Source: Shinella curvata (GTDB taxonomy: Bacteria > Pseudomonadota > Alphaproteobacteria > Rhizobiales > Rhizobiaceae). From it: a DNA stretch of 64,000 nt. Where the stretch lies: NCBI RefSeq assembly GCF_022899935.1, contig NZ_JALJCJ010000001.1, forward strand, positions 828,053 to 892,052. The letters are read 5' to 3'. This document shows, one piece after another, positions 8,589 to 20,726 of the stretch. Under the pieces are notes generated by a model that was given only the letters and a program-made list of their open reading frames with translations, searched no databases and was not told where the DNA came from. The position numbers and the translations under genes are program-made. The stretch's first letter is position 1; the number at the start of each line of letters is the position of its first letter.

Positions 8589-10256
8589 TCAGGCATTGCC
8601 GATCCTGATGTAGCCGATGTCCTTCTTTTCGATTTCGTCGAGCGATTCCTCGTAGCCGGCATCCGCATAGCGGATCACGCCAAGCGCGGTATCATTGGTC
8701 AGCGCATGCTGTAGTCGCTCCGCACCGCCAGCCGTGCCATCAGCCACCAGTGTCACGCCGCAGCTCGTCATGTAACCGGCATAACCGCCGCCGCCCGAAT
8801 GGATGACGACGAGGTCGGCCATCGAGGAGGAAAGCAACATGGCATCCAGCAGCGGCCAGTCGGCGATGGCATCCGAACCGTCCTTCATGCGCTCCGTCAT
8901 GATGTTCGGATGCGCCATGGCACCGGCATCGAGATGGTCGCGCGAAAAGGCGATCGGCCCCTTAAGCTCACCCGCCGCGACCAGCTTGTTGACGGCCAGC
9001 GCCAATTCCGTGCGCTCGCCATGGCCGAGCCAGGCAATGCGCGCCGGCAGGCCCTCGAAAGGCACGTTCTCGCGGGCAAGGCGAATCCAGTTGGTGACGA
9101 TGAAATTGTCCGGGAACATCTCCAGCACGAGATCGTCGATGCGGGCGATATCGCTTTCCTCGCCCGACAGCGCCATCCAGCGGAACGGCCCGATGGCACG
9201 CGCGAAGAGCGGCCGCAGATAGGCTTCTGTGAAGATCGGAATATCGAAAGAGTTGGTCACACCGCCCTCCCGCGCCTGCGTGCGGATGAGGTTGCCGTTG
9301 TCGAAAACCTCCGAACCCATCCTCTGGAAATCCAGCATGGCGGAGACATGTTCGACGATCGAGGCGCGGCTTGCCGCCATCAGCTGCCCCTGCCCGTCAT
9401 CGCGCAGACCCTTCACCTGATCGAGGCTCATGCCCTTCGGCACATAGCCGTAGACAAGGTCGTGCGCCGAGGTCTGGTCCGTGACGATGTCCGGCACGAT
9501 GCCGCGCCGCGCGATCTCCGGATAAATCTCCGCCGCATTGCCGACGAGACCGATCGAGGTCGCGCGCTTGTCCTTCACCGCTTCGTCGATCATGGCGAGC
9601 GCCGTATCGAGATCCGGCGCGACATGTTCAAGGTAACCGACGGCCTTGCGCGCAGCGGCGCGTGCCGGATCGATATCGACGCAGAGAATGGCCGCCCCCG
9701 CCATGCGCCCGGCGAGCGGCTGCGCGCCGCCCATGCCGCCAAGACCAGCCGTCAGGATGAAACAGCCGGCGAGACTGCCGCCGAAGCGTTTTTCCGCAAT
9801 GCGCATGAAGATTTCATATGTGCCCTGGATGACGCCCTGACTGCCGATATATTGCCAGGCGCCAGCGGTCAGCCCGCCCCAGCAGATCAGGCCCTTGCGC
9901 TGGAGTTCATAGAAGACCTCCGCCTTCGCCCATTGCCCGACGATATTGCAATTCGCCATGATGACGAGCGGCGCCTTCGCATGGGTTTTCAAGAGCCCGA
10001 CCGGCTTGCCGGACTGGATGACCAGCGTCTGGTCCTCGTCCATCTCCGTCAGCGCCTTGACGATGGCCTTGTGCGCCGCCCAGTTGCGCGCCGCCTTGCC
10101 GAGTGCGGCGTAGACGATGAGATTGTCCGGGTCCTCGCCGACCGACAGCACGTTTTCGAGCAGCCGCAACAGCCCCTCCTGCCGCCAGCCCTTGGCACGC
10201 AGCACATCGCCGCTGGGGATCGGATAATTCGGATGGCGCGGATTGGCTTTGGGCAT
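8589..10256 (-). CDS. Urocanase-family protein, probable thiourocanate hydratase
   Basis: This 555-residue protein is full length for the urocanate hydratase family and has the NAD-binding LTAGLGGMGG motif and RDHLDAG. Two hallmark positions differ from classical HutU. The conserved cysteine of ARICWLG is alanine here (ARIAWLG, near residue 408), and the HHGGG stretch is HSGGGG. There is no adjacent hutI or hutG; instead the operon holds an MIO-less HAL homologue, a DUF917 protein, a hydantoinase and an N-carbamoylase. I infer hydration of thiourocanate in ergothioneine breakdown. ATG at 10256 has AGAGGGA upstream. Ordinary urocanase remains the alternative. Confidence 0.8.
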   Translation of the reverse strand: MPKANPRHPNYPIPSGDVLRAKGWRQEGLLRLLENVLSVGEDPDNLIVYAALGKAARNWAAHKAIVKALTEMDEDQTLVIQSGKPVGLLKTHAKAPLVIMANCNIVGQWAKAEVFYELQRKGLICWGGLTAGAWQYIGSQGVIQGTYEIFMRIAEKRFGGSLAGCFILTAGLGGMGGAQPLAGRMAGAAILCVDIDPARAAARKAVGYLEHVAPDLDTALAMIDEAVKDKRATSIGLVGNAAEIYPEIARRGIVPDIVTDQTSAHDLVYGYVPKGMSLDQVKGLRDDGQGQLMAASRASIVEHVSAMLDFQRMGSEVFDNGNLIRTQAREGGVTNSFDIPIFTEAYLRPLFARAIGPFRWMALSGEESDIARIDDLVLEMFPDNFIVTNWIRLARENVPFEGLPARIAWLGHGERTELALAVNKLVAAGELKGPIAFSRDHLDAGAMAHPNIMTERMKDGSDAIADWPLLDAMLLSSSMADLVVIHSGGGGYAGYMTSCGVTLVADGTAGGAERLQHALTNDTALGVIRYADAGYEESLDEIEKKDIGYIRIGNA

Positions 10257-10285
10257 GGACGTCCCTCTTTGAAAAACAGAATTCG

Positions 10286-10615
10286 TTACTTCGGCGGCAG
10301 CGTATCGACAAAGGCGATGGCCTCGGAAATCAGGCGCCGGCGCAGCATTTCGTCGGCGCAGGCGTCGGGCGAGGCGCGCACCCAGCCCTCCATCACCCGT
10401 TCGCCCATCACCATCGGCGCGATGCCGTCGATGGCGAGCGCCCAGGCATCGTTGCCCTTGCCGAGGCGAGTAAGCATGCCCTCCTTGCGCGCGCCACACA
10501 GAAGGTGCCCGTCCAAGAGCCAGGCAAGCCCGCCGAACATCGGCTTTTCCGAAAGGCCCGCGCGAAAGCCGAGATCGGTGCGGACGATGTCTTCCAGTTC
10601 CCTGTCCCGTGCCAT
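10286..10615 (-). CDS. TfoX N-terminal domain protein
   Basis: This 109-residue protein matches the TfoX/Sxy N-terminal domain: KPMFGGLAWLLDGHLLCGAR in the first half and PMVMGERVMEGWVRA in the second. The C-terminal TfoX domain is absent, as in most proteobacterial stand-alone versions. It lies 15 bases after the DUF917 gene and 30 bases before the urocanase-like gene, within the predicted ergothioneine operon. Its role there is unknown; the family is often described as regulatory but without a defined biochemical activity outside competence. Confidence 0.75.
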   Translation of the reverse strand: MARDRELEDIVRTDLGFRAGLSEKPMFGGLAWLLDGHLLCGARKEGMLTRLGKGNDAWALAIDGIAPMVMGERVMEGWVRASPDACADEMLRRRLISEAIAFVDTLPPK

Positions 10616-10630
10616 CGCCCGCTCTCCCGC

Positions 10631-11722
10631 CTATTTCGCCAGGGCGTAGCTGACGAGGTCGATCCCCATCGCCTTTTCGACCGAGGGATAGACCGTCGGG
10701 TCGAGCACGCTGGAGGCGAGTGGGATGATCGACTTCGGCACATGCAGCACGAAGACTTTCATGCCGACTTCGAGCTGCCCGACGCTCAGCGGCTCGCCCT
10801 CGGGCGAGAGCGTGGTGATGACATCGGGGAAGGTCGCGCGGCGCTTTCCGTCCGCCGATTCCACCGCCATATATTCATTCATGACATGCAGCACCGAGGC
10901 GGTATCGCCCTTGCCGACCGTCACCGTGCCGATGTCGAAGGCCTCCTTGGTATAGACCACCGACTTGTCGGTGATCACACCCTCGGAGAGGATCGAGCCG
11001 CCGGTCGTCTTGACGATCGCGTCGATGATCGCCGAGCCGCCCTTGCCTTCCGCCGCGATGATCGCCTCGCCAAGCGTCAGTGCCAGCGAGATGCCGCCGA
11101 GTGCAGCATTCTTGCGCACATAGGAGGCGCGCAGCGGGTTGCGGCAGGAGGCGATGAAGCCGCCGGACATGTCGGAGGCGGTGCGCAGGATCGGCGAGAC
11201 CTTTGCCGTCGCACCACGCACGACGAGCTCGATATAGCGGTTCTCGTCGCGATTGCCGCCGACGGCCGTCTGGATCATCTGCTCGGGGGAGCCCGCCATG
11301 CCGATCGAGCCCATGTCACCGGTCGGATGCGCGCGCATGTCACCCACGGCATCCAGCACCTTGGTGCCGAGGATGGCCGAAGGCAGCCAGCCGTTCAGCG
11401 TCGAGGACTTACCGTTCTGGCCGACCATCAGCGCCGCGACTTTCTCGCCGAGCGCCTCCTGCAGAAGCTCCACCGCCTTCACATAATCGACGCCGCGCAT
11501 TTCCCAAGGCGTGGTCGAGGCCGGAGCGCCGATGGCCGCCGCCGTCGCCACCCAGTCGTCATCGGAGAGCTCATCGATGGAGACCAGTTCCGGCTTGCCG
11601 ATCGACACCGCGGCATAGCCGAGCATGCGCCCATGGTCCGCCCAACCACCGCCGCCGGCGGCATAGACCGAGCCGCCCTTGACCGCCGCCTCGACGTCTT
11701 TTTCCTTTAAAATCCGGCCCAT
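10631..11722 (-). CDS. DUF917 family protein, candidate thiohydantoin-propionate desulfhydrase
   Basis: The product, about 363 residues, belongs to the DUF917 family, recognised by the N-terminal EKDVEAAVKGGSVYAAGGGG and TTPWEMRGVDYVKAVELLQ. Its start overlaps the stop of the N-carbamoylase gene by one base (TAATG), so it is co-translated. Members usually sit with hydantoin-type genes. In a known ergothioneine route one step removes sulfur from 3-(5-oxo-2-thioxoimidazolidin-4-yl)propionate to give hydantoin-5-propionate, and this is the only gene in the operon left for that step. That function is inferred by elimination; the family call is firm. Confidence 0.75.
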   Translation of the reverse strand: MGRILKEKDVEAAVKGGSVYAAGGGGWADHGRMLGYAAVSIGKPELVSIDELSDDDWVATAAAIGAPASTTPWEMRGVDYVKAVELLQEALGEKVAALMVGQNGKSSTLNGWLPSAILGTKVLDAVGDMRAHPTGDMGSIGMAGSPEQMIQTAVGGNRDENRYIELVVRGATAKVSPILRTASDMSGGFIASCRNPLRASYVRKNAALGGISLALTLGEAIIAAEGKGGSAIIDAIVKTTGGSILSEGVITDKSVVYTKEAFDIGTVTVGKGDTASVLHVMNEYMAVESADGKRRATFPDVITTLSPEGEPLSVGQLEVGMKVFVLHVPKSIIPLASSVLDPTVYPSVEKAMGIDLVSYALAK

Positions 11723-12990
11723 TAGACGCTCTCCTGACTCAATTTCTGATCCAGCTGAATCACTGCATTAAAAAGCACCGCCGCCCCGAGCGCGATATCG
11801 TCGGTCTCGGCAAATTCCTCCGGCGCATGGCTGCGCCCACCGAGACACGGCACGAAGATCATCGCCGACCGCGTCACCTTCGCCATGAAGGCGGTGTCGT
11901 GACCCGCACCCGAGGCCATGCGCCGATGGCTGGCGCCGGCCGTCTCGCAGGCGGCATCCAGCACGTCGAGCACCAGCGGATCGCCCGGCGTCGGCATGTT
12001 ATCGGAAATGCGCCGCGGCCCGGCGATGGTTGTGCCGGTCTCGCGCGCGATCCCATCGGCAAGCTGGTCGACCGAGGCGGCGAAGAGGTCCATCGCGTTG
12101 CGCTCCTCCGCCCGAGCATCGATCAGCAGGCGGGCGCGCGACGGCACGACATTGGCGGCATTCGGCTCGATGGAGAATTCGCCGACGGTTGCCGTGAAGT
12201 GGCCCGGTCCTTCCGAGAGCGATTTCGCCAAGGCCTCGATGCCCGAGACCAGCCGCGCGGCCGCCGCCAGCGCATCGGCACGCGAACCCATCGGCGTCGT
12301 GCCGGCATGATCCGCCCGGCCCTCGACGATGATCTCGATGCGCGTGATCCCGGCAATCGCGGTCACCACGCCGATATCAAGCCTTTCGGTCTCCAACACC
12401 GGCCCCTGCTCGATATGCAGTTCGAGAAATGCGGAAATATCCTTGCGCGCTTCGGCGGCGATGCGCGCAGGGTCGCCACCGACATCGCGGATACCTTGCT
12501 CCAGTGTCAGTCCGTCCCTCTCCCGCAACAGCCAGTCCGCAGGCAGCACACCCGCCATGCCGCGACTGCCGATGCAGGAAACGCCGAAGATCGAGACCTC
12601 CTCGGCGAGGAAATCGACGACCTCCAGATCATGATTGAGTTCGATGCCCTTGTCGGCCAGGGCCTGCGCCACTTCCAGCGCCACCGCTACGCCGGCAATA
12701 CCGTCATAGCGCCCGCCATCCGGCACCGTATCGGAATGCGAGCCGAGCATGATCGTGCCGAGACCGGGCTTTTTGCCCGGCCGCCGGGCAACCAGATTGC
12801 CGGCGGCATCAATGCGTGTCTCGAGCCCCGCGGCCCGAAATCTTTCGTCGAGAAAATCCCGCCCCGCCGGGAACAGAGCGGTAAAGGCACGCCGTGTGTA
12901 GGGCCGGCCGGGCTCGGTGAGCTTGGCCAGCCCGTCGATCACATCCGCGATGCGGGCAGGATCGACCGGCAGATTGCTTGCACGAGCCAT
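11722..12990 (-). CDS. N-carbamoyl-L-amino acid hydrolase / allantoate amidohydrolase family (M20)
   Basis: The product, about 422 residues, is a metal-dependent amidase of the M20 family. Visible metal ligands are GSHSDTVPDGG (H85, D87), D96 in GRYDGIAG, and the E130-E131 pair in LAEEVSIFG. HIEQGPVLE and GHDTAFMAKV are also conserved. It would release glutamate, CO2 and ammonia from N-carbamoyl-L-glutamate, the last step of the proposed pathway. The ATG at 12990 shares ATGA with the stop of the hydantoinase gene, and another in-frame start 156 bases upstream lacks support. Allantoate amidohydrolase is the alternative within the family. Confidence 0.88.
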   Translation of the reverse strand: MARASNLPVDPARIADVIDGLAKLTEPGRPYTRRAFTALFPAGRDFLDERFRAAGLETRIDAAGNLVARRPGKKPGLGTIMLGSHSDTVPDGGRYDGIAGVAVALEVAQALADKGIELNHDLEVVDFLAEEVSIFGVSCIGSRGMAGVLPADWLLRERDGLTLEQGIRDVGGDPARIAAEARKDISAFLELHIEQGPVLETERLDIGVVTAIAGITRIEIIVEGRADHAGTTPMGSRADALAAAARLVSGIEALAKSLSEGPGHFTATVGEFSIEPNAANVVPSRARLLIDARAEERNAMDLFAASVDQLADGIARETGTTIAGPRRISDNMPTPGDPLVLDVLDAACETAGASHRRMASGAGHDTAFMAKVTRSAMIFVPCLGGRSHAPEEFAETDDIALGAAVLFNAVIQLDQKLSQESV

Positions 12991-12992
12991 GA

Positions 12993-14369
12993 TCAGGCCC
13001 TCGCGGAAACAAGCGTCGGCAACGGACGCACGAAGGCGCCGGTGCCGGGTTCGGAAAGCACGTTCGTGCCGTCGAAGGCGAGTTTTCCGCGCAGATAGGT
13101 CGCGGAGACACGCCACGGCAATCGAATACCATGATAGGGCGACCATCCCACGACATTGTTGCCGCTTGCTGCCGCGTCATACGTATAGGGCTCGGGCGTC
13201 AGCACGGTGATGTCGGCATCTTTGCCGGCTTCCAGCGCGCCCTTCACATGGTCGAGCCGGAAATGGCGCGCCGGGTTTAACGTCATCAGCTCGGCGGCGC
13301 GCGTCAGCGGAATGCCGCGCTCCAGCGCGCCCTTGACGAAGAGCGGCACCATGACCTCCAGCCCCGGCACGCCCGACGCATTGGCCAGCATGTCCGAATT
13401 GGTCTTGCGGTCCTCCGACCAGCTGACATGGTCCGTCGAGACCAGCGTGACATTGCCCTCGGCGACATGGCGCCAGAGCTTTTCCACCTCGGCGCGCGGG
13501 CGGATCGGCGGATTGATCTTCGCCTTGCCGCCAAGCCTGGCGACGTCGTTCTCCTCGTCGAGAACGAGATAGTGGATGCAGCATTCGATGGTCGCGCGAA
13601 AACCTTGCGCGCGGTAGACGGCGGCGATCTCGTAGCCGCGGCCGAGCGAGCAATGCACGACATGGGCCGGGCAGCCAGTCTCCGCACCGGTTTCATAAAT
13701 CTGGTTGGAGGCAAGCAGTTCCGTCAGCGGCGGGCGCGACAGGCCGTGGGCGCGATAATCGGTGATGCCGGCCGCCTTCACCTTGGCGATTGCCGCGCGC
13801 ACCGCCTCGTCATCCTCATTGTGCACGCCGGCCGTCAGGCCCGTGGGTGCGATGGCGCGGAAACAATCCTCCAGCAGGGCTGCCGGAATGCGCGGAAAAC
13901 GCTTCGGGTCCGTGCCGAAGGTGGAGAACTTGAAGGCGGCAACGCCCGCCTCAACCATTTCCGCGATGCGAGCCGGTCCTTCTTCCGGGTCGACGGTGCC
14001 ATAAAGCGCGAAATCGACGCGCGCCTGCGGCCTCGCGTGATCGACCTTGATCTTCACCGCCTCGGCGGAGCAGACGAGATTGCCCTCGTCATAGGGCATG
14101 TCGACGATGGTGGTAACGCCACCCGCCGCCGCCGAACGCGTCGACCAGATGAAATCCTCCTGGTTCTTCTGCGACAGCGAATGGACCTGCGCATCGATGG
14201 CGCCGGGCAGGATGAGCGCGCCGGACAGGTCGTGCCGCTCCTTCGCCGCCGGCATCGTGCCCTGGCCGACATGCACCACCTTGCCGTCCCGCACCGCGAC
14301 ATGGCCGCCTTCGACGATGCGGTCCGGCAGAACCACGGTGCCTTTCAGAACGAGATCGAAATCGGCCAT
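12993..14369 (-). CDS. Hydantoinase/dihydroorotase-like amidohydrolase
   Basis: This 458-residue amidohydrolase resembles allantoinases and hydantoinases. The usual first metal motif D-x-H-x-H reads D59-A-Q61-V-H63, so one histidine is replaced by glutamine. The carboxylated lysine appears as K147 in VAAFKFSTFG, followed by GVHNED, AHVVHCSLG and STDHVSW. It lies between the HAL-like and N-carbamoylase genes with 2 to 10 base gaps. The inferred reaction is ring opening of hydantoin-5-propionate to N-carbamoylglutamate. The substituted ligand may define a subfamily rather than loss of activity. Confidence 0.85.
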   Translation of the reverse strand: MADFDLVLKGTVVLPDRIVEGGHVAVRDGKVVHVGQGTMPAAKERHDLSGALILPGAIDAQVHSLSQKNQEDFIWSTRSAAAGGVTTIVDMPYDEGNLVCSAEAVKIKVDHARPQARVDFALYGTVDPEEGPARIAEMVEAGVAAFKFSTFGTDPKRFPRIPAALLEDCFRAIAPTGLTAGVHNEDDEAVRAAIAKVKAAGITDYRAHGLSRPPLTELLASNQIYETGAETGCPAHVVHCSLGRGYEIAAVYRAQGFRATIECCIHYLVLDEENDVARLGGKAKINPPIRPRAEVEKLWRHVAEGNVTLVSTDHVSWSEDRKTNSDMLANASGVPGLEVMVPLFVKGALERGIPLTRAAELMTLNPARHFRLDHVKGALEAGKDADITVLTPEPYTYDAAASGNNVVGWSPYHGIRLPWRVSATYLRGKLAFDGTNVLSEPGTGAFVRPLPTLVSARA

Positions 14370-14379
14370 CGGCGGGTCC

Positions 14380-15918
14380 TCACGGTTTCAGGGCAAAGAA
14401 GCTGTCGACATCCGCCATGGGCGCGGCATCGACGAAGGCGGCGAGTGCTTCGGGGCTGGCAAGGTCGCGGTCGAGCGCCTCGATTTCGGCGGAGAGCGGC
14501 CGGTCCTTGCGGTAGAAGGGGCTGATCGCCCGCGTGCGCTGGTACGCGATGGCGACGACACCCTCGGTGTTGTCACCGGAAAGATCGATCGCCTGGGCAG
14601 ACAGCATGGCCTCCAGCGCCGCGAGCTGGCGCAGGTCGCGCACTTGGCTTTCCATGCGCTCGACGATGAGCGGCAGGAAGGTCGCCTCCTCCTCCAGCCC
14701 GCCGGCCACGACGATCGACTGCGCCGAGATCGGCACCGCCAGCGACTGGATGCGCATGTAGAGTTCGACGGCGAGTTTCAACAGCGGCCCGAAGCCCGTC
14801 GCCGCCTCGCCGGGCGCCACGAGATTGACCGGCAGGTTGCGGCGCACGCCGTTCGACAGCAGCACGCAGCGGTTCAGCACATTGCGGGCGAGATGGGCAA
14901 AGCCCGTCTGCGCCGCCTCGACATAGAGCGTGGTCGACAGCGGCAGCGAGCCGCCCGAGGCCATGACATGGCTGTCCATCACGACCGGATTGTCATCCGA
15001 CTGCGCCGTCGCCTCGACGAGGCGCTCGGCGGCGGTCATCAGCGTATCCAGGCACGCGCCGAACACCTGGGCAGTCATGCGCAGGCTCAGCGGATCGTGG
15101 ATGGCCGACGGTTTTGGCCAATGCCCCGAGGTCGCCTGCGCCTCGAACCACGTACCCGCCAGCGCCTCGCCATGCGCCGAAAGCCGTGCCGCCACCCGCC
15201 ACGGATCGGCCGACGCGCCGAGCGCCAGCGACGACAGCACGCCCGTCACCATCAGATTGCGGATCGCTTTCGCTGCCTCGCGCACGACATTGGCAGCGGC
15301 GGCATGCGAGATGGCGTTGACGCTGAGTGCCGCCAGCGCATCGCGGGGCTGCATGCGGTAGGGTTTCAGGCCGGCACGCTTCAGCGCCTCCGGCGCCGGC
15401 AGGCGTTCGCCGCCATACCAGGCCTCGCCCTCGCCGGTCATGACGGCGGCGATCTGCCCCATCAGGCCGATATCGGCGCAGCCCATCGAGCCATGGCGCC
15501 GCACGACAGGCACGACATCCTTTTCGAGCAGCGCCAGGAAGGCATCGATCAGCTCCGGGCTGCAACCGGAATAGCCGCCGAGCGCCGTGTTGACGCGGAT
15601 CGCCATCGCCTTGCGCACGATCGGCAGCGTGAAGGGCTCGCCGGTGCCGAAATGATGCGCCTTGACGAGATTGTTGTTGAATTCGACGAGATCGTCCGCC
15701 GTCCAGAGCTTGTCCTTCATCGACCCGACGCCGGTATTGGCGCCGTAGATCGGCAAGCCCGTGGCAAGACGGTCGGTGATCACGAGGCGCGACGTGCCGA
15801 CGCGGCCCATGCCGATCTCGCAGGCCACCGGACGCCGCGCACCCGTACCGATCGCCTCCAGCGTGGCGAAATCGAGCGGTTGACCGGTGAGATAGAGCGT
15901 ATCGGCGGAAGCGAGCAT
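14380..15918 (-). CDS. HAL-superfamily lyase lacking the MIO triad, probable ergothionase
   Basis: The 512-residue protein has the aromatic amino acid lyase fold signature: YGANTGVGS near residue 58, GYSGCSPELI, and MQPRDALAALSVNA. The Ala-Ser-Gly triad that cyclises to MIO is absent: the expected GSxGASGDL reads GSMGCADIG, giving C147-A148-D149. Ergothionase, which eliminates trimethylamine from ergothioneine to give thiourocanate, is a known HAL relative without MIO. The neighbours supply every later step. It is the first gene of the six-gene operon, divergent from a LysR gene. Histidine ammonia-lyase activity is unlikely. Confidence 0.85.
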   Translation of the reverse strand: MLASADTLYLTGQPLDFATLEAIGTGARRPVACEIGMGRVGTSRLVITDRLATGLPIYGANTGVGSMKDKLWTADDLVEFNNNLVKAHHFGTGEPFTLPIVRKAMAIRVNTALGGYSGCSPELIDAFLALLEKDVVPVVRRHGSMGCADIGLMGQIAAVMTGEGEAWYGGERLPAPEALKRAGLKPYRMQPRDALAALSVNAISHAAAANVVREAAKAIRNLMVTGVLSSLALGASADPWRVAARLSAHGEALAGTWFEAQATSGHWPKPSAIHDPLSLRMTAQVFGACLDTLMTAAERLVEATAQSDDNPVVMDSHVMASGGSLPLSTTLYVEAAQTGFAHLARNVLNRCVLLSNGVRRNLPVNLVAPGEAATGFGPLLKLAVELYMRIQSLAVPISAQSIVVAGGLEEEATFLPLIVERMESQVRDLRQLAALEAMLSAQAIDLSGDNTEGVVAIAYQRTRAISPFYRKDRPLSAEIEALDRDLASPEALAAFVDAAPMADVDSFFALKP

Positions 15919-16026
15919 GTTTCAAAAAGCCTGTTTTTCAGAGGCAATCCCAAGACAGTGACGTGCGATTTCCGTCAGGAATTGCGTGTGGATGTTATGC
16001 GGAACGGGAAAGGATCGTATATCCCA

Positions 16027-16041
16027 AAACCCGTACGGTTT
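16027..16041. promoter_or_regulatory. Near-palindrome, candidate LysR operator
   Basis: In the 166-base divergent region between the HAL-like gene and the LysR gene, AAACCC-GTA-CGGTTT is a near-perfect dyad just upstream of TATGCTATA. It is a reasonable site for the adjacent regulator to control both directions. It is supported by symmetry and position only. Confidence 0.35.
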
Positions 16042-16084
16042 ATGCTATAGGTCGAACAGCCAGCAAGACGCCGAAGGACCACCC

Positions 16085-17239
16085 GTGGATCTATCCACCC
16101 TCTGCCTTGTGCACAGCATTCTCGAAGAACGCGGCATCCGCAGGGCAGCCGCCGCTTGCGGCCGCCCGGCCTCCAGTGCCAGCGCCGCCCTTCGACGGGT
16201 CGAGACCGTTTTGTCCGTGCCGCTCGTGCGCCGGGACGGCCAGGCCCTCGTGCCGACACTGGAGGCGGAAGCCCGCCTGCCGCGCTTCGCCGACATCGCG
16301 CGCGCCGCCGCAGCACTCGCCGCATTGGGCGAGGGTGATGGCAGCATCCCGCTTACCGCCCTCTCCCGTTTCGCCGCTGCGGCCCGTGCCGGCAGCATCA
16401 ACGCGGCCGCCAAAAGCCTCGGCCTTGGCCAGCCGCAGCTCACCCGCCAGCTCAGCCATCTGGAAGCCGCCATTGGCTGCAAGCTGCTCGACCGTTCGGC
16501 TTCCGGCATCAGCTGCACGCCAGAAGGCCTGGAGGCGCTGGCGCTCGCCGAACGCATCGGCGGCACGTGGGAACAGCTCTTCGCCGCCTCCGCCGAACGC
16601 TTCCGCCGCAGCGCCGCCACCTGGCGGCTCGGCACGATCATCCCCTTCGGCCACGAAAGCGAAATCGCCGCCATGCTGGCGCGGCTTGCCGTGGAATGGC
16701 GAAGCGCACGCCCCCGCCAGCCGCTCTTCCTGTCCTCCACCACCGCGGACGAACTCGTCTCCGGCCTGAAAAACCGCCGCTTCGACCTGATCCTGCTCGA
16801 CACGGACCGCTATCCAGCGGAATTCGACGGACAGCTGATCGGCCGCTCCCAACTCGCGCTCGCCGCCCCGCGGGCACTGAAGGAGACCGAACGGCAAGAT
16901 TTCGCCGCACTGTTACGCCGCTACCCCATCGCCGTCCCGAGCCCGAAGAGCGGCCTGCGCCAGATGACTGACCGCTTTCTGGAAGCGACCCTTTCCCCGG
17001 CCGAACGCTCCCGCCTGACGCTGGTCGAAGTCGATTCGATCCCCGTCATCATCAATCTCGTGCTGGACCACGGCCACCTCTCCGTTCTGCCGGAACATTC
17101 CGTCGCCAACATCAACTCGCCGCCGACGCTGCTGCCACTCGACACCGCCTACCAACAATCCCTCAGCCTCGTCTGGCCGCGCGACGCACTCTCCCGGCAG
17201 GCGGCGGAGGCGATGGTCAAGCTGCTCGCAAGATCCTAG
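16085..17239 (+). CDS. LysR-type regulator with duplicated helix-turn-helix domains
   Basis: The product is about 384 residues, longer than the roughly 300 usual for the family. It appears to carry two LysR-type DNA-binding domains in tandem: residues 1-60 (LCLVHSILEERGIRRAAAAC then LRRVETVLSVPLVRR) and about 93-155 (LSRFAAAARAGSINAAAKSL then RQLSHLEAAIGCKLLDR). A normal effector-binding domain follows from about residue 180. GTG at 16085 has AAGGA seven bases upstream. It is divergent from the ergothioneine-type operon and is its likely regulator. The first domain is more degenerate and may not bind DNA. Confidence 0.82.
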   Translation: MDLSTLCLVHSILEERGIRRAAAACGRPASSASAALRRVETVLSVPLVRRDGQALVPTLEAEARLPRFADIARAAAALAALGEGDGSIPLTALSRFAAAARAGSINAAAKSLGLGQPQLTRQLSHLEAAIGCKLLDRSASGISCTPEGLEALALAERIGGTWEQLFAASAERFRRSAATWRLGTIIPFGHESEIAAMLARLAVEWRSARPRQPLFLSSTTADELVSGLKNRRFDLILLDTDRYPAEFDGQLIGRSQLALAAPRALKETERQDFAALLRRYPIAVPSPKSGLRQMTDRFLEATLSPAERSRLTLVEVDSIPVIINLVLDHGHLSVLPEHSVANINSPPTLLPLDTAYQQSLSLVWPRDALSRQAAEAMVKLLARS

Positions 17240-18231
17240 CCCTTCGCCCCCGCCCTCAGCCGTCGCCGGGTCTCCGTCGGGCTTTCGTGATAGTGCGCGC
17301 GGTAGCTGCGCGAAAAGGCGGAGGAGGAGTTGAAGCCGGTAAGGGCGGCGATGTCGGCGAACTCGGCCTTGGTCTCGATGACCTTGCGCCGGGCGGCATT
17401 GAGGCGGAGCGCAAGATAATGCTGGTGGGGGGCGACGCCCATCGATTCCTGGAAGAGGTCCTGGAGGTGGCGGGCGCTGATGCCGACGCGCTTGGCAAGC
17501 CGTGTCAGGGTGAGCGGCGCATCCACCGTCTCTTCCATCAGCCGCACGGACTGGCTGACGCGCTGGTCGGCGACGCGCATGTTGCCGAGTGCCGGCACCT
17601 GCAAAAGGCCGCCTGTGCGCTCGTGCTCGTAGATGAACAGCCGCGAGACTTCGAGCGCCAGTGAATAGCCCTGGCGACGGCGGATGATTTCCAGCATCAG
17701 GTCGAGTGTCGGCAGCGAGCCGCCGGTTGTGATACGCTTGCCGTCGATGACATAGCGTTCGCGCATCACCGCGATCTGCGGGTAACGCGAGGCGAATTCC
17801 TCCATGTCCTCCCAGTGGATCGTCACGGAATGGCCGTTGAGCAGGCTCGCCTCGGCAAGCAGCCAGCTGCCTGATTCGATGCCGGCCATCATCGAGCGGT
17901 AGCGCGCCGTCTGCGAAAGCTGGCGCCGCAACAGAGGCGTCGCACTCATCTGCCATTGATAGCTCGAGAGCACGAAGAGCGGATGGGCCTCCTTCTCCGG
18001 CCGGAACACGCCGTCGACGGGCACGGGAATGCGGCTGCGCGTCTCCACCGGCGCGCCATCCGGCGAGAAAATGCGCCAGCGATAGAGGTCCTGGCCGGAG
18101 ATGCGGTTGGCCGCGCGCAGGGGTTCGATGACCGAGGCGACGAGGATGAGGTTCGTCTCGGGCAACACGAGAATATCGATGTCGAGTGTATCGGCGGATG
18201 GATCGAGCATGGCGATATCCTGCTTTTTCAT
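17236..18231 (-). CDS. cdhR: AraC/GlxA-family regulator, CdhR-like
   Basis: The product is about 331 residues, with an N-terminal DJ-1/PfpI-like domain (ILVLPETNLILVASVIEPLRAANR, then MMAGIESGSWLLAEASLLNG) and a C-terminal AraC helix-turn-helix pair (LTLTRLAKRVGISARHLQDLF and FADIAALTGFNSSSAFSRSYR). This is the architecture of CdhR and GbdR, activators of carnitine and betaine catabolism in Pseudomonas. It is divergent from the carnitine cluster, separated by 93 bases. Start 18231 (MKKQDIAM) is preferred; 18210 is possible. Its stop overlaps the convergent LysR gene by four bases. Confidence 0.82.
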   Translation of the reverse strand: MKKQDIAMLDPSADTLDIDILVLPETNLILVASVIEPLRAANRISGQDLYRWRIFSPDGAPVETRSRIPVPVDGVFRPEKEAHPLFVLSSYQWQMSATPLLRRQLSQTARYRSMMAGIESGSWLLAEASLLNGHSVTIHWEDMEEFASRYPQIAVMRERYVIDGKRITTGGSLPTLDLMLEIIRRRQGYSLALEVSRLFIYEHERTGGLLQVPALGNMRVADQRVSQSVRLMEETVDAPLTLTRLAKRVGISARHLQDLFQESMGVAPHQHYLALRLNAARRKVIETKAEFADIAALTGFNSSSAFSRSYRAHYHESPTETRRRLRAGAKG

Positions 18232-18324
18232 CTCTCGAATTGTCAAGGATGGATCCGAAAAGTGAAAGCACTGCGCCTTCTCTTGGCTCGTAATGGACCC
18301 AACAAGAATTCTGGGAGAGACCAC

Positions 18325-19236
18325 ATGCCCTTAGCCATGAACCGTGATGTCTTCATCACCTGCGCCGTCACCGGCTCCGGCGACACCGCCGGCAAATCGC
18401 CCCACGTTCCGCGTTCGCCAAAGCAGATCGCCGAATCGGCCATCGACGCCGCCAAGGCCGGTGCCGCCGTCGTGCACTGCCACGTCCGTGACCCGGAAAC
18501 CGGCGCACCGAGCCGCCGCAACGATCTCTACCGCGAAGTGACCGAGCGCATCCGTGACGCTGAGGTGGACGTGGTGCTGAACCTCACCGCCGGCATGGGC
18601 GGCGACATGATCTTCGGCAATACCGAACAGCCGCTGCCGCTCAACCCCGTCGGCACCGACATGGTGGGCGCGACCGAACGTGTCAGCCACGTCGCCGAAT
18701 GCCTGCCGGAAATCTGCACGCTCGATTGCGGCACGATGAACTTCTCGCTCGGCGACTACGTGATGACCAACACGCCGTCGATGCTGCGCGCCATGGGCAA
18801 GATGATGACCGACCTCGGCGTGCGTCCCGAAATCGAAGCCTTCGACACCGGCCATCTCTGGTTCGCCAAGCAGCTCGTCGAGGAAGGCGTCATCGAGGAT
18901 CCGGTCCTCATCCAGCTCTGCATGGGCATTCCGTGGGGCGCACCCGACGACCTCAACACCTTCATGGCAATGGTCAACAACGTGCCCGCCAACTGGACCT
19001 TCTCTGCCTTCTCCATCGGCCGCAATGCGATGGCCTATCCGGCAGCCTCGATTCTCGCTGGCGGCAATGTTCGCGTCGGTCTTGAAGACAATCTCTATGT
19101 CGGCAAGGGCCAGCTCGCCACCAATGCACAGCTCGTCGAAAAAGCCGTGAACGTCGTTGAAAGCATGGGCGCCCGGATCATCGGCCCGGCCGAAGTGCGC
19201 GAGAAGCTGAAACTCCAGAAGCGGGCACCGAAATGA
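18325..19236 (+). CDS. cdhC: 3-dehydrocarnitine:acetyl-CoA cleavage enzyme (BKACE family)
   Basis: The 303-residue protein belongs to the beta-keto acid cleavage (DUF849/BKACE) family: AAKAGAAVVHCHVRDPETGAPSRR, LNLTAGMGGDM, TLDCGTMNF, and the C-terminal AGGNVRVGLEDNLYV. In carnitine breakdown it converts 3-dehydrocarnitine and acetyl-CoA into acetoacetate and betainyl-CoA. The zinc-binding HCH is visible near residue 52. ATG at 18325 follows GGGAGA. Its stop overlaps the start of the carnitine dehydrogenase gene by four bases, which strongly supports this substrate over other BKACE substrates. Confidence 0.88.
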   Translation: MPLAMNRDVFITCAVTGSGDTAGKSPHVPRSPKQIAESAIDAAKAGAAVVHCHVRDPETGAPSRRNDLYREVTERIRDAEVDVVLNLTAGMGGDMIFGNTEQPLPLNPVGTDMVGATERVSHVAECLPEICTLDCGTMNFSLGDYVMTNTPSMLRAMGKMMTDLGVRPEIEAFDTGHLWFAKQLVEEGVIEDPVLIQLCMGIPWGAPDDLNTFMAMVNNVPANWTFSAFSIGRNAMAYPAASILAGGNVRVGLEDNLYVGKGQLATNAQLVEKAVNVVESMGARIIGPAEVREKLKLQKRAPK

Positions 19237-20726
19237 GCCAGATCAACAAGGCAGCCTGCGTCGGCGGCGGCGTCATCGGCGGCGCGTGGGTCGCGCGCTT
19301 CGCGCTCGCCGGCATCGACGTCAAGATTTTCGATCCACATCCGGAGGCCGAGCGCATCATCGGCGAAGTGATGGCGAATGCGGAGCGTGCCTATGGCATG
19401 CTCACCATGGCGCCGCTGCCGCCGAAGGGCAAAGTGACCTTCTGCAAGAGCTTGGAAGAAGCCGTCCAAGACGCTGACTGGATTCAGGAAAGCGTGCCGG
19501 AGCGGCTGGAGCTGAAACGCGGCGTCATCACCCAGATCGACGCGGCCGCCAAGCCCGATGCGCTGATCGGCTCGTCCACCTCAGGCCTGATGCCGACCGA
19601 TCTGCAGCGCGACATGAAGCACCCCGAGCGGCTGTTCGTGGCGCATCCCTACAACCCTGTCTACCTGCTGCCGCTCGCCGAACTCGTCGGCGGCGAGAAG
19701 ACGAGCAAGGCGACGCTCGAAGCCGCCAAGGCCAAGCTCGCACCCATCGGCATGAAGGGCGTGATCATCAAGAAGGAAATCGAAGCCTTCGTTGGTGACC
19801 GCCTGCTCGAAGCCGTCTGGCGCGAAGGCCTCTGGCTGATCAAGGACGACATCTGCGACACCGAGACGCTCGACGACGTGATCCGCTATTCGTTCGGCAT
19901 GCGCTGGGCGCAAATGGGCATGTTCGAGACCTACCGCATCGCCGGCGGCGAAGCCGGCATGCGCCACTTCCTCGCCCAGTTCGGCCCCTGCCTGTCCTGG
20001 CCGTGGACGAAGCTGACCGACGTCGTCGATCTCAACGACGAGCTGGTCAACAAGATCGCCGACCAGTCGGACGCCCAGTCCGGCGCGCGCGGCATCCGCG
20101 AGCTGGAGCGGATCCGCGACCAGAACCTCGTCGGTATCATGCATGCGCTGAAGGCCGGCGATGACGGCAAGGGCTGGGGTTCGGGCAAGCTGCTCGCCGA
20201 GTTCGAGGAGCACCTTTGGGCCAAGGCCGGCAAGGCGAAGGTCGAGGTTTCCGCAAGCGAACCGCTGCGCCTGATCGATACCAAGGTCAATGCCGCCTGG
20301 GTCGACTACAACGGCCACATGACGGAACACCGTTATCTCCAGCTGTTCGGCGATACGTCCGATGCGCTGCTGCGGCTGATCGGGGTCGATTTCGCCTATG
20401 TCGAGGCCGGCCACAGCTACTACACGGTGGAGACCCACATCCGCCATCTCGGCGAAGGCAAGCTTGGCCAGGCGCTCTACACGACGCTCCAGCTTCTCTC
20501 CTCCGATGGCAAGCGGCTGCATTTCTTCACCCGTATCCACGACGCGGCAAGCGGCGACGTGATCGCAACGGCCGAACAGATGATGGTGCATGTCAACTCG
20601 AAGGCCGGCAAGAGCGTCGAGGCACCTGCAGAGGTGCTGGCGAAGATCAAGCCGATCGCCGACGCCCATGCCAAGCTCGCAACGCCTGACGGTGCAGGCC
20701 GCAGCGTCGGCCAGAAGCGCGCCTGA
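19233..20726 (+). CDS. L-carnitine dehydrogenase fused to betainyl-CoA thioesterase
   Basis: The 497-residue protein has two parts. Residues 1-320 resemble 3-hydroxyacyl-CoA dehydrogenases, with the NAD motif CVGGGVIGGAW at 9-19 and SSTSGLMPTDLQ. Residues about 345-475 form a hot-dog thioesterase domain (VDYNGHMTEHRYLQLFGD, then TVETHIRHLGEGKLG). The first would oxidise L-carnitine to 3-dehydrocarnitine; the second would hydrolyse betainyl-CoA to glycine betaine. In Pseudomonas these are separate CdhA and CdhB proteins; fused forms are known in rhizobia. ATG overlaps the upstream stop. Confidence 0.88.
   Translation: MSQINKAACVGGGVIGGAWVARFALAGIDVKIFDPHPEAERIIGEVMANAERAYGMLTMAPLPPKGKVTFCKSLEEAVQDADWIQESVPERLELKRGVITQIDAAAKPDALIGSSTSGLMPTDLQRDMKHPERLFVAHPYNPVYLLPLAELVGGEKTSKATLEAAKAKLAPIGMKGVIIKKEIEAFVGDRLLEAVWREGLWLIKDDICDTETLDDVIRYSFGMRWAQMGMFETYRIAGGEAGMRHFLAQFGPCLSWPWTKLTDVVDLNDELVNKIADQSDAQSGARGIRELERIRDQNLVGIMHALKAGDDGKGWGSGKLLAEFEEHLWAKAGKAKVEVSASEPLRLIDTKVNAAWVDYNGHMTEHRYLQLFGDTSDALLRLIGVDFAYVEAGHSYYTVETHIRHLGEGKLGQALYTTLQLLSSDGKRLHFFTRIHDAASGDVIATAEQMMVHVNSKAGKSVEAPAEVLAKIKPIADAHAKLATPDGAGRSVGQKRA

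Follow-up and report, generated by a model that had tools for sequence, protein, structure and literature searches.

A predicted ergothioneine catabolic operon of Shinella curvata with a divergent LysR-type regulator carrying two winged helix-turn-helix domains

We analysed a window (the whole stretch examined) of 64,000 nucleotides from the 6.07 Mb genome of the soil bacterium Shinella curvata, in which six minus-strand genes lie head to tail beside a divergent gene for a LysR-type regulator (Table 1). The arrangement is as an earlier note on this DNA had described it, with gaps or overlaps of 1–29 bases: from the lyase gene to the urocanase-like gene there are, in order, a 10-base gap, a 2-base gap, a 1-base overlap, a 15-base gap and a 29-base gap. 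The lyase and LysR genes are separated by 166 bases (15919–16084), likely the control region. Pfam domain assignments agree with the family labels proposed in that note for the six products and the regulator, to whose description they add a second helix-turn-helix (HTH) domain.

Table 1. Genes and candidate operator of the S. curvata locus (window coordinates; MIO, 4-methylidene-imidazole-5-one; HAL, histidine ammonia-lyase).
Feature	Position	Strand	Evidence
Ergothionase-like lyase (MIO-less HAL homologue), predicted: ergothioneine to thiourocanate and trimethylamine	14380-15918	minus	Pfam Lyase_aromatic, PDB, fold
ErtD, hydantoin-5-propionate amidohydrolase	12993-14369	minus	NF058538; Pfam Amidohydro_1
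ErtE, N-carbamoyl-L-glutamate amidohydrolase	11722-12990	minus	NF058540; Pfam Peptidase_M20
Thiohydantoin desulfurase (DUF917 / S-Me-THD family)	10631-11722	minus	NF058529; Pfam S-Me-THD_N/C
TfoX_N-domain protein, accessory	10286-10615	minus	PF04993
Thiourocanate hydratase, urocanase-like	8589-10256	minus	NF058530; Pfam three urocanase domains
Operator-like site CGTACGGGTTTTGGGATAT in the lyase/LysR intergenic region	16019-16037	minus	Alignment of the window and 16 loci
LysR-type regulator, two tandem winged-HTH domains, GTG start	16085-17239	plus	Pfam HTH_1 in two stretches and LysR_substrate

Fungi and some bacteria produce ergothioneine, a dietary antioxidant. Judging from the sequence, this operon very probably serves to break it down to glutamate, under the divergent regulator. 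In the predicted order of reactions, the lyase would take trimethylamine off ergothioneine to give thiourocanate, which the hydratase would convert to thiohydantoin-propionate; the DUF917 enzyme would swap sulfur for oxygen and release sulfide, ErtD would open the hydantoin ring and ErtE would take off the carbamoyl group, yielding glutamate.

For comparison, we searched for the hydratase at an E value of 1e-250 and found it in 5 of 385 genomes of the class, 6 of 398 of the phylum and 30 of 397 of the order, S. curvata being included in each count. These make 34 distinct genomes, and the stretches around the hydratase gene were read for 33 of them (G1053 was left out).

Both Pfam and fold searches assign the lyase to the histidine/phenylalanine ammonia-lyase fold. 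It matches PF00221 with 278.9 bits, and its best sequence match in the PDB is 6s7j, the ergothionase of Treponema denticola (188.7 bits; the next match reaches 148.2). Its predicted structure, with a predicted local distance difference test score (pLDDT) of 88.2, is also closest to 6s7j (template-modelling scores TMq 0.88 and TMt 0.91), ahead of the HAL structure 1b8f (0.86 and 0.87). The Ala-Ser-Gly MIO triad is missing, as the earlier note had claimed and as in ergothionase: the region reads GSVG-ASG-DLAP in the HutH of the same genome, GSMG-CA-DIGL in the window lyase and SSIG-EG-DITT in the T. denticola enzyme. A triad cut to two residues, together with the lysine of a GFGPxxK motif, is found in all 26 lyases visible in the stretches of the 33 genomes. 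The Shinella and T. denticola enzymes thus have in common the fold, the shortened triad and the conserved lysine, as well as a leucine where HutH has a tyrosine in the QDP(Y/L) motif. Among 11 aligned lyases, which are invariant at 81 columns, 30 of these columns are common to HutH and the T. denticola ergothionase and 15 to the latter only, N201, L277 and K381 among them. Residues Y58, H88, N201, R280, K381 and E409 are invariant in the 11 lyases and matched in T. denticola, having been chosen by invariance and not from a published catalytic list; the paper on the T. denticola ergothionase reportedly names four catalytic residues. The nearest named relatives belong to Shinella, with Shinella sp. 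WSJ-2 (L006) at 99% in the lyase. The PDB and fold matches and the shortened triad point to a lyase of the ergothionase type, predicted to release trimethylamine.

The remaining four of the five pathway enzymes reach curated NCBIfam equivalog cut-offs for ergothioneine breakdown. The hydratase scores 1039.7 bits on NF058530 (cut-off 930), the desulfurase 601.6 on NF058529 (cut-off 440), ErtD 799.6 on NF058538 (cut-off 600) and ErtE 596.2 on NF058540 (cut-off 520). The best PDB match of the hydratase, at 810 bits, is 7ned, labelled urocanate hydratase, which we take to be the Paenibacillus thiourocanate hydratase; the second urocanase-like protein of the genome reaches only 697.9 on NF058530. 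The S-Me-THD_N/C domains of the desulfurase are presumably those formerly named DUF917. Near the hydratase gene, ErtD is found in 28 and ErtE in 27 of the 33 stretches.

Several observations weigh against an ergothioneine operon. The lyase is only about 28–29% identical to the sole solved ergothionase and has no NCBIfam match above cut-off, nor did any NCBIfam ergothionase model match it. Besides, 11 of its 81 invariant columns are common to HutH but not to the T. denticola ergothionase; with only 15 columns against 11, we dropped the shared columns as clean proof of kinship, and the comparison favours ergothionase, though not overwhelmingly, with a modest specific kinship. ErtE scores higher on the generic Zn hydrolase model NF009531 (659.2, cut-off 486). 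Finally, no importer of the OsmF type (see below) is linked to the operon in the Shinella genome. For this reason, and with a TfoX protein that has no known pathway role, the earlier note overstated completeness in stating that every step was present; the ergothioneine route itself stood, with four of five enzymes above curated cut-offs and an ergothionase as the best PDB match of the lyase.

The distance of the lyase from the solved enzyme would also suit a substrate closely related to ergothioneine, such as S-methyl-ergothioneine, ergothioneine sulfonate or hercynine. In these families NCBIfam does keep separate models for an S-methyl branch, and an excerpt of PMC13405746 cites a 2022 ergothioneine sulfonate catabolic pathway for Agrobacterium radiobacter, also an alphaproteobacterium. 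The hydratase and the desulfurase, which pass the thio models, nevertheless fall under the cut-offs of the S-methyl models (726.9 against 880 on NF058531 and 288.4 against 450 on NF058532), placing both outside that branch, and hercynine would require no desulfurase; we therefore regard a close-relative substrate as unlikely. Even less probable, to the point that we give it very little weight, is a second histidine utilisation (hut) system. The lyase and the hydratase do fall within the HutH and HutU superfamilies, and the hydratase passes the hutU cut-off of 375, but its score there (681) is far under that on the thiourocanate model. The MIO triad is moreover missing from the lyase, and neither Pfam nor NCBIfam identifies a HutI, HutG or HutC among the six genes, so the classical association of an MIO-bearing HutH with hutI and hutG neighbours is not present. 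The earlier note was right that hut genes are absent from this stretch, yet HutH and HutU homologues lie side by side elsewhere in the genome, on contig C12 (L044), and histidine has therefore its own likely route. Breakdown of ergothioneine remains our preferred interpretation of the operon.

The divergent regulator shows the hallmarks of the LysR type, a winged HTH (wHTH), a linker helix and a LysR substrate domain, plus one extra wHTH module. Its N-terminal segment alone matches HTH_1 with 38.3 bits (cut-off 26.6), and eight of ten loci tested in this way reach the Pfam cut-off, L034 remaining narrowly below (26.2 against 26.6). We dropped L035 as a case of single HTH: the segment tested was the second domain, and further upstream the same open frame continues through another, HTH-like stretch. 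An AlphaFold model (pLDDT 86.5; predicted template-modelling score 0.55) contains two complete wHTH and linker-helix modules, at residues 3–81 and 90–175, ahead of the effector domain. In fold searches, about 300 columns align with ordinary LysR chains such as CbnR, OxyR and BenM, compared with which the Shinella protein has an extra N-terminal wHTH and linker-helix module; the 50 matches listed are of 272–326 residues, too short to hold a second module. Among the matches listed from the literature, mostly non-subscription, neither a tandem-HTH LysR nor a regulated ergothioneine operon was described. Most likely, the regulator would bind a site conserved in the promoter region of the lyase, with ergothioneine or an intermediate as the signal by which it switches the operon.

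The candidate for this site is CGTACGGGTTTTGGGATAT, the core of the block conserved in the aligned intergenic regions. It has one exact copy in the genome, that of the window; two other matches, with 3 mismatches, are at the level of the reversed-pattern control, and no second strong site was found in the Shinella genome. From four sites (window, L016, L020 and L021) we built a matrix and scanned with it 21 further loci whose genomes or plasmids have the LysR gene; positions were judged against frame ends. In 19 of them the best site of the stretch precedes the lyase, or OsmF in the case of L033; in the two exceptions, L035 and L043, a 17-site matrix finds sites at the LysR gene (27.7 and 23.4). 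As negatives we took eleven loci from genomes without the LysR at 1e-30, leaving out L069 because its genome, G988, has the LysR on another contig; the LysR label in L056 and L059 is a weak match of 107–108 bits, with none at 1e-30 in those genomes. Four-site scores overlap (11.3–23.9 for positives, 7.3–15.4 for negatives), and it is therefore position, not score, that separates the two groups. With the 17-site matrix the best scores of the eleven negatives are 6.3–14.9, none before the lyase, which is visible in only six of them (L060, L061, L064, L065, L068 and L070), and no comparable site was found there. Training sites score 21.8–32.8 with this matrix, a partly circular result because the matrix was built on most of the positives; outside the training set, six loci, which include close kin of trained ones, score 24.3–32.3. 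The plasmid locus L033 has a second copy of the site before a divergent OsmF operon, and in G988 a site scoring 24.7 lies beside the LysR gene, before the lyase and not before OsmF. No site was found beside the unlinked LysR of G015 (2.9). The usual operator pattern of LysR regulators is T-N11-A, which we dropped as a feature of the site, the window copy not fitting it in the register considered. In all, the operator-like site goes with the presence of the LysR among relatives. Separately, L060, L061, L064, L065 and L070 share a different sequence, like CATACTCCATTTGGGGTAT, about 2.6–2.9 kb upstream of the lyase; the five genomes belong to one genus and lack the tandem LysR, and the sequence is perhaps the site of another regulator.

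Genes of an OsmF-type ATP-binding cassette (ABC) importer are present in 20 of the 33 stretches, in 18 of them together with the lyase. Counting G988, where the lyase and the OsmF binding protein are on another contig beside the LysR gene, OsmF adjoins the lyase in 19 of the 33 genomes; in L062 (G993) some 9 kb separate the cassette genes from ErtD, and no lyase is seen in the stretch. The usual order in relatives is LysR, lyase, OsmF binding protein, permease, ATPase, permease, ErtD, ErtE, desulfurase and hydratase, with the exception of some loci without LysR and of L068, without ErtD and ErtE. The operon-encoded binding proteins pass the NF049931 cut-off and in this respect resemble the OsmF/YehZ importer (E. 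coli, PDB 4wep; also 5teu and 4nd9); what sets them apart is gene order, which in relatives ties OsmF to ergothioneine breakdown. At the level of the order, OsmF occurs in 85 of 397 genomes, namely 25 of the 30 with the hydratase and 60 of the 367 others (overlap counted by hand; Fisher p ~5e-14, not corrected for kinship). It is linked to the operon in 18 of those 30, as shown by positions for 17 and, for G988, by cassette genes where the contig ends. In many relatives, ergothioneine would thus probably be imported by an operon-encoded OsmF-type ABC importer; we put this link forward as a hypothesis for the relatives and, more weakly, for Shinella.

OsmF might instead be a general importer of glycine betaine or osmoprotectants, its placement in the operons of relatives being unrelated to ergothioneine. 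This is a serious possibility, although we rather doubt it. It would agree with the 60 genomes of the order that have OsmF but no hydratase, and with the operon-linked proteins forming no clade of their own; we rejected such a clade since the linked state would have to change 10 times across the tree. The Shinella OsmF (C15) is itself unlinked to the operon, with neither the LysR nor a site beside its gene (the best upstream scores being -0.6 in L081 and 7.0 in L046), and G662, with hydratase and lyase, has no OsmF match at all in its genome. On the other hand, a general importer would not be expected to be linked to the operon in the 18 genomes above, nor to be preceded by the second site of L033. 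Likewise, one genus of the same family includes five genomes in which a LysR homologue (32–35%) stands divergent about 0.5 kb from OsmF and away from the lyase operon; the latter retains its site, while the LysR/OsmF pairs show only weak site-like matches (11.0–11.3), which again suit a general importer. In an excerpt of PMC5894108, YehZ binds glycine betaine only in the millimolar range, and none of proline, choline, ectoine and carnitine. With binding of the tested compounds reported as very weak at best, ergothioneine is a candidate ligand of OsmF/YehZ. Taken jointly, that OsmF/YehZ imports ergothioneine in Gram-negative bacteria and that a LysR subfamily with a double DNA-binding domain controls both import and breakdown via a shared operator (approximately YGTNCNNNNTTTGGGATAT) is a tentative proposal that we place somewhat short of an even chance, slightly lower than before because the site of G988 precedes the lyase and not OsmF.

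The TfoX gene lies where the earlier note had placed it, and its product matches PF04993 with 36.1 bits (cut-off 30.1), but it is not a conserved part of the locus: a TfoX_N gene between desulfurase and hydratase is found in only 6 of the 33 genomes (the window, L039–L041, L053 and L054). It also occurs in L011 (Shinella kummerowiae), the sole case among the 17 contig loci L006–L022. The count of 6 in 33 rules it out as a pathway component, and we consider it an occasional passenger. In Shinella sp. WSJ-2 a different insert of about 0.5 kb (L006:15310-15848) occupies its place.

Past the LysR gene, at 17236–20726 of the window, there is a carnitine catabolism cluster with a GbdR-like regulator (206 bits, under the cut-off of 480), a BKACE protein and a carnitine dehydrogenase (907, cut-off 592). 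The cluster adjoins the operon in all ten Shinella loci (L006–L015) and in L020; it is one gene further away in L016–L019 and L022, and is not visible in the short L021, L033 and L034. Carnitine genes next to the operon in Shinella and in several Rhizobium and Mycoplana loci might form a trimethylammonium catabolic island. Elsewhere in the genome (C12:46499-47869; L047:8272-9963) there is a second HAL-like protein without the MIO triad (GSVGYLTH), directly after genes that resemble, by eye, those of a betaine/histidine ABC transporter. A profile search found no match to PF10017 (EgtD-type) in the S. curvata genome, but that search is not specific, since it also gave matches in 2 of 14 control genomes, E. 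coli among them.

Variants of the locus were seen among the relatives. L043, L056 and L059 contain hydratase and desulfurase genes with a HisJ-type amino acid ABC transporter, the lyase not being in the stretch and ErtD appearing in L043 only; these bacteria might be thiourocanate scavengers that rely on others to split ergothioneine. In L038 (G086; 8814–13606), a HAL homologue that does carry the MIO triad directly precedes a desulfurase (73%) and a thiourocanate hydratase (68%), with no ErtD or ErtE in the stretch; this might be an ammonia-lyase route that starts from a free-amine thiohistidine.

A five-step bacterial catabolism of ergothioneine was reportedly described by Beliaeva, Leisinger and Seebeck in 2021, and Shinella has the same enzyme set, judged by the curated models for thiourocanate hydratase, thiohydantoin desulfurase, ErtD and ErtE. 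The pathway is thus already known, the Shinella enzymes are further members of known families, and the novelty given to it in the earlier note was overstated, as both NCBIfam models and that 2021 paper exist. The alphaproteobacterial version differs from it in the distance of its lyase, in its tandem-wHTH LysR and, among relatives, in having an OsmF importer; what the comparison brings as new is this regulator, the candidate operator and the OsmF link. An alphaproteobacterial enzyme is also already in print, since Agrobacterium radiobacter is listed among organisms with an identified ergothionase in the excerpt of PMC13405746. The ergothioneine ABC importer EgtU (PDB 7txl) belongs to the same wide family of quaternary-amine binding proteins as OsmF but is distant, the OsmF protein of L035 scoring 96 bits against 7txl and 450 against 5teu; according to an excerpt of PMC9732360, EgtU homologues come nearly exclusively from Firmicutes.

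The destruction of ergothioneine in soil and its import by Gram-negative bacteria have so far been little described. This operon family supplies a regulator together with candidates for its operator and for an importer, and with them a ligand that could be assigned to OsmF/YehZ. Two wHTH modules in one LysR protein would also be an unusual arrangement for DNA binding.

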